A DNA stretch of 64,000 nucleotides, from positions 62,001 through 126,000 of the forward strand of contig CANGVA010000004.1 in NCBI GenBank assembly GCA_947457395.1. The letters are read 5' to 3'. Both the position numbers and the translations under genes were made by a program. This document shows, in pieces, positions 23,595 through 23,870 of this stretch (the stretch's first letter is position 1; each line of letters starts with the position of its first letter). Source of the DNA: Bacteroidota bacterium (GTDB taxonomy: Bacteria > Bacteroidota > Bacteroidia > UKL13-3). The notes beneath the pieces are model-generated. The model was given only the letters and a program-made list of their open reading frames with translations, did no database searches and had not been told where the DNA came from.

Positions 23595-23675
23595 ATGAAA
23601 CGCAACAATCTATTTATAAACCATCATTCCATGCACGCCATGTGCATGCATATGTGTTGTTGCATGTGTAGTTAA
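23595..23675 (+). CDS. Met/Cys-rich leader peptide 1 (26 aa)
   Basis: A 26-codon ORF: ATG start, TAA stop at 23673-23675. The second half reads MHAMCMHMCCCMCS: five Met, five Cys and two His in fourteen codons, just before the stop. It is the first ORF of the transcript that later encodes metY, metX and hom, which make methionine and its precursors. Such codon clusters are the hallmark of ribosome-mediated attenuation, in which stalling at scarce Met/Cys-tRNA changes RNA folding downstream. A hairpin (AGGTG 23692-23696 with CACCT 23706-23710) follows. The composition is seen directly; the regulatory role is inference. Confidence 0.7.
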   Translation: MKRNNLFINHHSMHAMCMHMCCCMCS

Positions 23676-23759
23676 TTAGTAGCTCCTATAAAGGTGCATC
23701 AGGTACACCTCCTTCAAAGCCTGAAAAAAATCAAATTCCATCATATCTAACAAACGTAG

Positions 23760-23870
23760 GTGAAAAATTATTTCATCCATTTATGTACCTCAATCCTCAC
23801 AGCAAAAAGCAGTGCAGAAGTTTGTTGTATGTGTATGATGCGTATGTGTTGCTCACACGAGCGACACTAA
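23760..23870 (+). CDS. Met/Cys-rich leader peptide 2 (36 aa, GTG start)
   Basis: The frame opens after a TAG at 23757-23759 and runs from GTG 23760 to TAA 23868-23870. Near the end it reads [16 protein letters not shown]: four Met and five Cys within eleven codons. If translation instead began at ATG 23829, the peptide would be 13 residues and still hold the cluster. The last eight codons lie inside a 9-bp hairpin (23846-23867), so a ribosome stalled on the Met/Cys codons would mask its 5' arm. The cluster resembles leader 1, which suggests a tandem duplication of the control device. The start codon is uncertain. Confidence 0.6.
23846..23867 (+). promoter_or_regulatory. leader hairpin overlapping the end of leader peptide 2
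   Basis: GTGTTGCTC (23846-23854) and GAGCGACAC (23859-23867) pair over 9 bp with one G-U pair, enclosing loop ACAC. The 5' arm covers the last Met/Cys codons of leader 2. Confidence 0.7.

Follow-up and report, generated by a model that had tools for sequence, protein, structure and literature searches.

Tandem Met/Cys-rich leader ORFs upstream of metY in Bacteroidota as a likely two-part attenuator

The window analysed here, a 64,000 nt stretch of contig CANGVA010000004.1 from a Bacteroidota bacterium, contains two short ORFs rich in Met and Cys codons, placed one behind the other upstream of a methionine operon. Their position raises the question of whether they encode leader peptides through which the supply of these two amino acids controls the operon. 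We consider it likely that ORF1 and ORF2 encode leader peptides and that metY-metX-thioesterase-hom is controlled through them by a tandem ribosome-mediated attenuator sensing both Met and Cys.

The leader ORFs, their promoter and the operon

The region contains the following features.

23553..23584, + strand: Bacteroidota-type promoter, with TTG at 23553 and CATATTTG at 23577-23584
23595..23675, + strand: leader ORF1, 26 aa from an ATG, near-leaderless; translation MKRNNLFINHHSMHAMCMHMCCCMCS, then stop
23760..23870, + strand: leader ORF2, 36 aa from a GTG start; kept in five f1 relatives
24001..25320, + strand: metY, O-acetylhomoserine sulfhydrylase (TIGR01326, above cut-off)
25320..26360, + strand: metX, homoserine O-acyltransferase (NF001209, just above cut-off)
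26357..26779, + strand: acyl-CoA thioesterase-like protein (matches to the YciA and YbgC families, below cut-off)
26787..28022, + strand: hom, homoserine dehydrogenase (NF004976, above cut-off)

The operon genes were named by NCBIfam matches, which bear out the gene order given in the original prediction, and the two Met/Cys-rich ORFs lie upstream of the operon where that prediction had placed them, with 84 nt rather than 85 between the ORF1 stop and the ORF2 GTG. ORF2 has no ATG, and the GTG at 23760 was taken as its start; an ATG or GTG is kept at the matching position in relatives. Within ORF1 the cluster MCMHMCCCMC occupies 23640-23669, and the ORF2 cluster occupies 23823-23852. When all six frames of the 64 kb were scanned, only ORF1 and ORF2 reached at least 7 Met/Cys per 10-codon window, and none of 40 dinucleotide shuffles of the window contained at least 8 per 10 codons. 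The clustering is far beyond chance, as had been expected from the density of the two clusters.

The promoter-like element noted earlier ahead of the leaders matches the TAnnTTTG consensus found at -12 to -5 in Bacteroidota promoters (PMC9723704), and it is kept in the f1 relatives. From this match transcription is predicted to start at about 23589, approximately 6 nt before the ORF1 ATG. A start downstream of 23870 had been named in advance as evidence against the leaders; in the sequence no better promoter-like site was found below that position. Apart from tRNAs, no Rfam RNAs were found in the window, and there was no T-box match at gathering score.

Several other features of the window were recorded. 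Divergent from the leader region, on the minus strand at 22227-23477, is a SufS/PvdN-like PLP enzyme (below cut-offs). A membrane pyrophosphatase with an unusual Cys/Met-rich C-terminal tail is located at 19640-22015, and a small Cys/His-rich ORF comes next after its gene (22016-22165). Two minus-strand ORFs between tRNA genes (30692-30898 and 30904-31002) share the initial peptide MPTKKLFFCCCRSTSRLADVNRHRDELLPL, indicating that the stretch is repeated there.

Leaders and SAM-I across metY loci

We gathered 150 metY upstream regions from public genomes, 95 of which carry a Met/Cys leader, defined as a cluster of at least 5 Met/Cys per 10 codons within 700 nt. Among the 88 loci gathered first, the 450 nt ahead of metY contain clusters of at least 6 in 10 at approximately 68 times the density found on the rest of that strand, a figure lowered by a few misread reversed loci. 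The pattern ATGTGYATGTGYTG, searched in 62 genomes of the window's family, gave convincing Met/Cys leaders only at metY, so that this pattern gives no sign of such control at other genes.

The metY of the window is present in 8 of 64 genomes of its family. Conservation of both ORFs and their clusters in relatives had been set as a test, and both leaders are kept in six of these eight loci (the window, L003, L004, L005, L111 and L112). After the start, ORF1 peptides contain 7-11 Met/Cys residues and ORF2 peptides 8-12; residue order and the N-terminal parts differ among them, and the Met/Cys density is kept. As for the two family loci without the pair, the metY of L007 groups outside the window's family, while L031 has a different operon order and a single poly-Cys leader far upstream. 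A second family has the tandem pair at each of its three metY loci (L127, L131 and L140), and two further MAGs (L038 and L081) have it too, giving 11 loci in total.

The single leader of L031 (ECCYCCCR, at 1500-1660 of that locus) lies behind a TATATTTG promoter and is followed by peroxiredoxin-thioesterase-metY-osmC-metX-hom. In L040, L041, L063, L085, L094 and L102 the leader precedes a small OsmC-like gene and then metY. The gene names in these loci were assigned by eye.

A SAM-I model built from Rfam-verified matches was run over all metY loci. SAM-I lies upstream of the leader in 78 of 84 single-leader loci and in none of the 11 tandem loci (Fisher p = 1.6e-10, with related loci being non-independent). 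A poly-Cys leader downstream of SAM-I is the common arrangement at metY in Bacteroidota. Judged by sequence comparison, the tandem pair stands where relatives carry SAM-I in several Bacteroidota lineages; about three changes on the MetY tree are required to explain the tandem label, and no fewer than two of these are forced. There is no SAM-I (RF00162) match in the window or anywhere in the window's genome. Five genomes with tandem leaders (G006, G063, G111, G147 and G209) do carry SAM-I elsewhere, and the absence is therefore one at the locus, not merely genome-wide. Codon composition differs as well, with 5.4 Cys and 1.6 Met per 10 in single-leader clusters versus 3.7-4.0 Cys and 3.6-3.7 Met per 10 in the clusters of both tandem leaders. 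Because the tandem leaders mix Met with Cys and have no SAM-I at the locus, their Met codons seem to assume the task of the riboswitch, replacing its methionine signal.

Cytophagales-type loci (L040, L041, L043, L051, L052, L058, L070, L074, L089, L091, L093-L095 and L102) have SAM-I, a poly-Cys leader and then a conserved element, CAGCAACA..CTAGC..CTGCC..GTGACAGG..GGCTA, located ahead of metY or of whichever gene opens the operon. The first part of this element is complementary to the Cys codons, and five pairs change on both sides. Rfam searches of L040, L052, L058 and L095 gave SAM-I only.

RNA structures and the proposed attenuation

Under the proposed mechanism, a ribosome supplied with charged Met-tRNA and Cys-tRNA would pass the Met/Cys codons and the downstream terminator would form. 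Were either tRNA scarce, the ribosome would stall in the cluster, and the RNA just downstream would pair with the 5' arm of the terminator, allowing transcription to continue. Two attenuators in series could provide tighter or graded control, and in the tandem lineages free of SAM-I the methionine signal would come from the Met codons. Stalling and tRNA sensing are proposed here from sequence.

The fullest version of such a device is found in six relatives (L005, L038, L081, L127, L131 and L140), in which both leaders have an intrinsic terminator of their own downstream and the leader tail, from cluster to stop, is complementary to the terminator 5' arm. Summed over these 12 attenuators, the antiterminator duplex energy has a z of -7.7 against shuffled tails (0/500). 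Full-length equilibrium folding was rejected as a test of ribosome position, as it mostly favours the terminator wherever the ribosome stands and does not discriminate; the RNA was therefore folded only as far as the decision point. With the ribosome in the cluster the 5' arm is sequestered at 0.48-0.92, versus 0-0.24 with the ribosome at the stop, and all 12 attenuators show the predicted behaviour in silico. In these folding models, classical attenuator logic is present twice in series in each of the six. A sub-threshold Rfam hit to BTnc231 in L005 was dismissed, as it rests mostly on the terminator hairpin.

The RNA of the window copy contains these elements.

23742..23756, + strand: helix A, 5' arm, directly upstream of the ORF2 start; pairs with ORF2 Met/Cys codons
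23819..23834, + strand: helix A, 3' arm, formed by Met/Cys codons of ORF2
23759..23777, + strand: hairpin B, whose 5' arm contains the ORF2 start codon
23846..23867, + strand: hairpin C, in which Cys codons (GUGUUGCUC) pair with the tail of ORF2 (GAGCGACAC)
23890..23906, + strand: hairpin D, downstream of the ORF2 stop and with a GGAA loop
23896..23911, + strand: competitor strand, a potential partner of 23963-23980 (the U-tract and 3' arm of the terminator)
23941..23977, + strand: intrinsic terminator, stem-loop 23941-23970 and T6 at 23972-23977, -15.9 kcal/mol

In the window copy a terminator is located downstream of ORF2 only, its T-run ending 23 nt before metY; a T-run directly after the stem is found in L003 as well, and L111 has a weaker, AU-rich version. 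The window, L003, L004, L111 and L112, the five window-type loci, all lack a U-tailed terminator after ORF1. The two-stage attenuator of the original prediction thus stands as regards the conserved pair and the two complete devices of six relatives, while the window itself has no U-tailed terminator for the first stage. Its further suggestion, that the pair perhaps arose by duplication of one device, has weak backing: devices of the same locus are clearly more alike in L005 only, and elsewhere the comparison is inconsistent.

Helix A was equalled in 0/1000 shuffles over five window-type loci (z -5.2; 150/1000 for the window copy alone) and hairpin B, which recurs with changed sequence in the five loci, in 0/500 (z -5.6); the p-values of both are optimistic because the tests were narrowed post hoc, after looking at folds. 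Pairing of the whole inter-ORF region (82-88 nt in the window type, with 6-13% G versus 18-26% C) with either cluster was not above shuffles. For hairpin C, 95.6% of cells are paired across the five loci, with no both-sided change among them. Hairpin D has both-sided change in five of six pairs among the five loci, and its covariation score was reached in 0/500 shuffles. The competitor duplex of the window, at -20.1 kcal/mol and with 1/300 for shuffles, is not conserved in relatives, nor was hairpin D found to pair with the terminator in a conserved way. The predicted probability of the window terminator is 0.43 with the ribosome in the cluster and 0.62 at the stop, hardly dependent on position. 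The window copy, with its one terminator after ORF2, would presumably work like the six relatives, and its ORF1 step may depend on RNA structure in the ORF2 region, including access to the locked ORF2 start, or else on Rho.

The same structures could be read as translational control, with ribosomes on ORF1 and ORF2 remodelling the RNA that governs translation of ORF2 and metY or Rho entry, and with the terminator being secondary. Conservation of hairpin B and helix A with changed sequence, the locked ORF2 start, the spacing and G-poor composition of the inter-ORF RNA and the absence of a terminator after ORF1 would all suit such control. However, the T-run is kept in the window and L003, and in weaker form in L111, and relatives with full devices use terminators. 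We regard this reading as the less likely one. An extension that we put forward tentatively is that in the window's family both leaders form one coupled RNA device, in which ORF1 translation, ORF2 translation and transcription termination are linked serially into a logic gate, the ORF2 start being locked in a conserved hairpin inside a helix made partly of ORF2 Met/Cys codons, and that such a device replaced SAM-I more than once.

Two further explanations concern the ORFs themselves. One is that they encode functional small metal- or sulfur-binding peptides that are not sensors; their richness in Cys, Met and His is like that of metal-binding peptides. Yet order, length and N-termini are not conserved here, only Met/Cys density; the clusters overlap regulatory helices, are strictly linked to metY and exchange with SAM-I, making such a role very improbable. 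A nucleotide-level artefact is harder still to credit. Repeats of TGTG or ATGTG might just happen to translate as Met/Cys, alternating Met and Cys is indeed what ATGTGT repeats encode, and shifted frames in L003, L111 and L112 also yield weaker Cys clusters. Nevertheless, the clusters range from repeat-like to mixed codons, stay in frame with start and stop, have no counterpart elsewhere in the window and are kept with different nucleotides in the 95 of 150 loci. The tandem attenuator sensing Met and Cys is accordingly the reading that we favour.

Relation to known systems

No description of tandem Met/Cys leaders, or of SAM-I combined with poly-Cys leaders, in Bacteroidota was found in the open-access literature, the scope of our search, which agrees with the statement of the original prediction that it knew of no such tandem pair. 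Sulfur control in this phylum seems to include these leaders as a widespread layer that has apparently gone unreported. In Flavobacterium, amino-acid operons have been suggested to be under leader-peptide attenuation (PMC9723704), and the swapping of a riboswitch or T-box for a leader peptide is a known theme (PMC2965389). At metY, leader peptides and SAM-I exchange places at one gene and the codon make-up shifts with them, from Cys only beside SAM-I to Met and Cys where it is absent, so that these loci allow the exchange and combination of RNA sensors to be tested directly. SAM-I resembles the tandem leaders in gene, operon position and methionine signal, but it is an aptamer that binds SAM and is absent from all tandem-leader loci.

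Bacteroid-trp RNA holds Trp-codon ORFs before trp genes. It is listed as a candidate cis-regulatory RNA of Bacteroidetes (RF01692; table in PMC2864571) and differs in its Trp codons; the window contains no match. Poly-Cys leader peptides are found upstream of sulfur genes in Actinobacteria (PMC1262725; see also Canestrari et al. 2020, as cited in PMC13236596). They share with the metY leaders the runs of Cys codons near the stop, the position before sulfur genes and, in mycobacteria, leaderless short ORFs; they differ in being single and of Cys only, and terminator hairpins were not found there. For the uORFC-8-2 cysS motif of Rhodobacterales, with Cys codons and an intrinsic terminator, ribosome-mediated attenuation has been proposed (PMC8632094), although this is a single ORF with two Cys codons, before cysS and without Met.

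The mgtCBR leader of Salmonella, with the tandem attenuators mgtM and mgtP, of which mgtP senses proline codons, was called by its authors a singular example of tandem attenuators for different signals (PMC3641672). As at metY, two short ORFs per leader are each tied to alternative structures and to transcription of the operon. Unlike at metY, the first mgtCBR ORF senses ATP, and genes, phylum and amino acids differ. An arrangement of the mgtCBR type, each ORF having its own alternative structures, is found in L005, L038, L081, L127, L131 and L140, while the window has its terminator after ORF2 only. The metY pair adds a clear case to the few known tandem-attenuator leaders.
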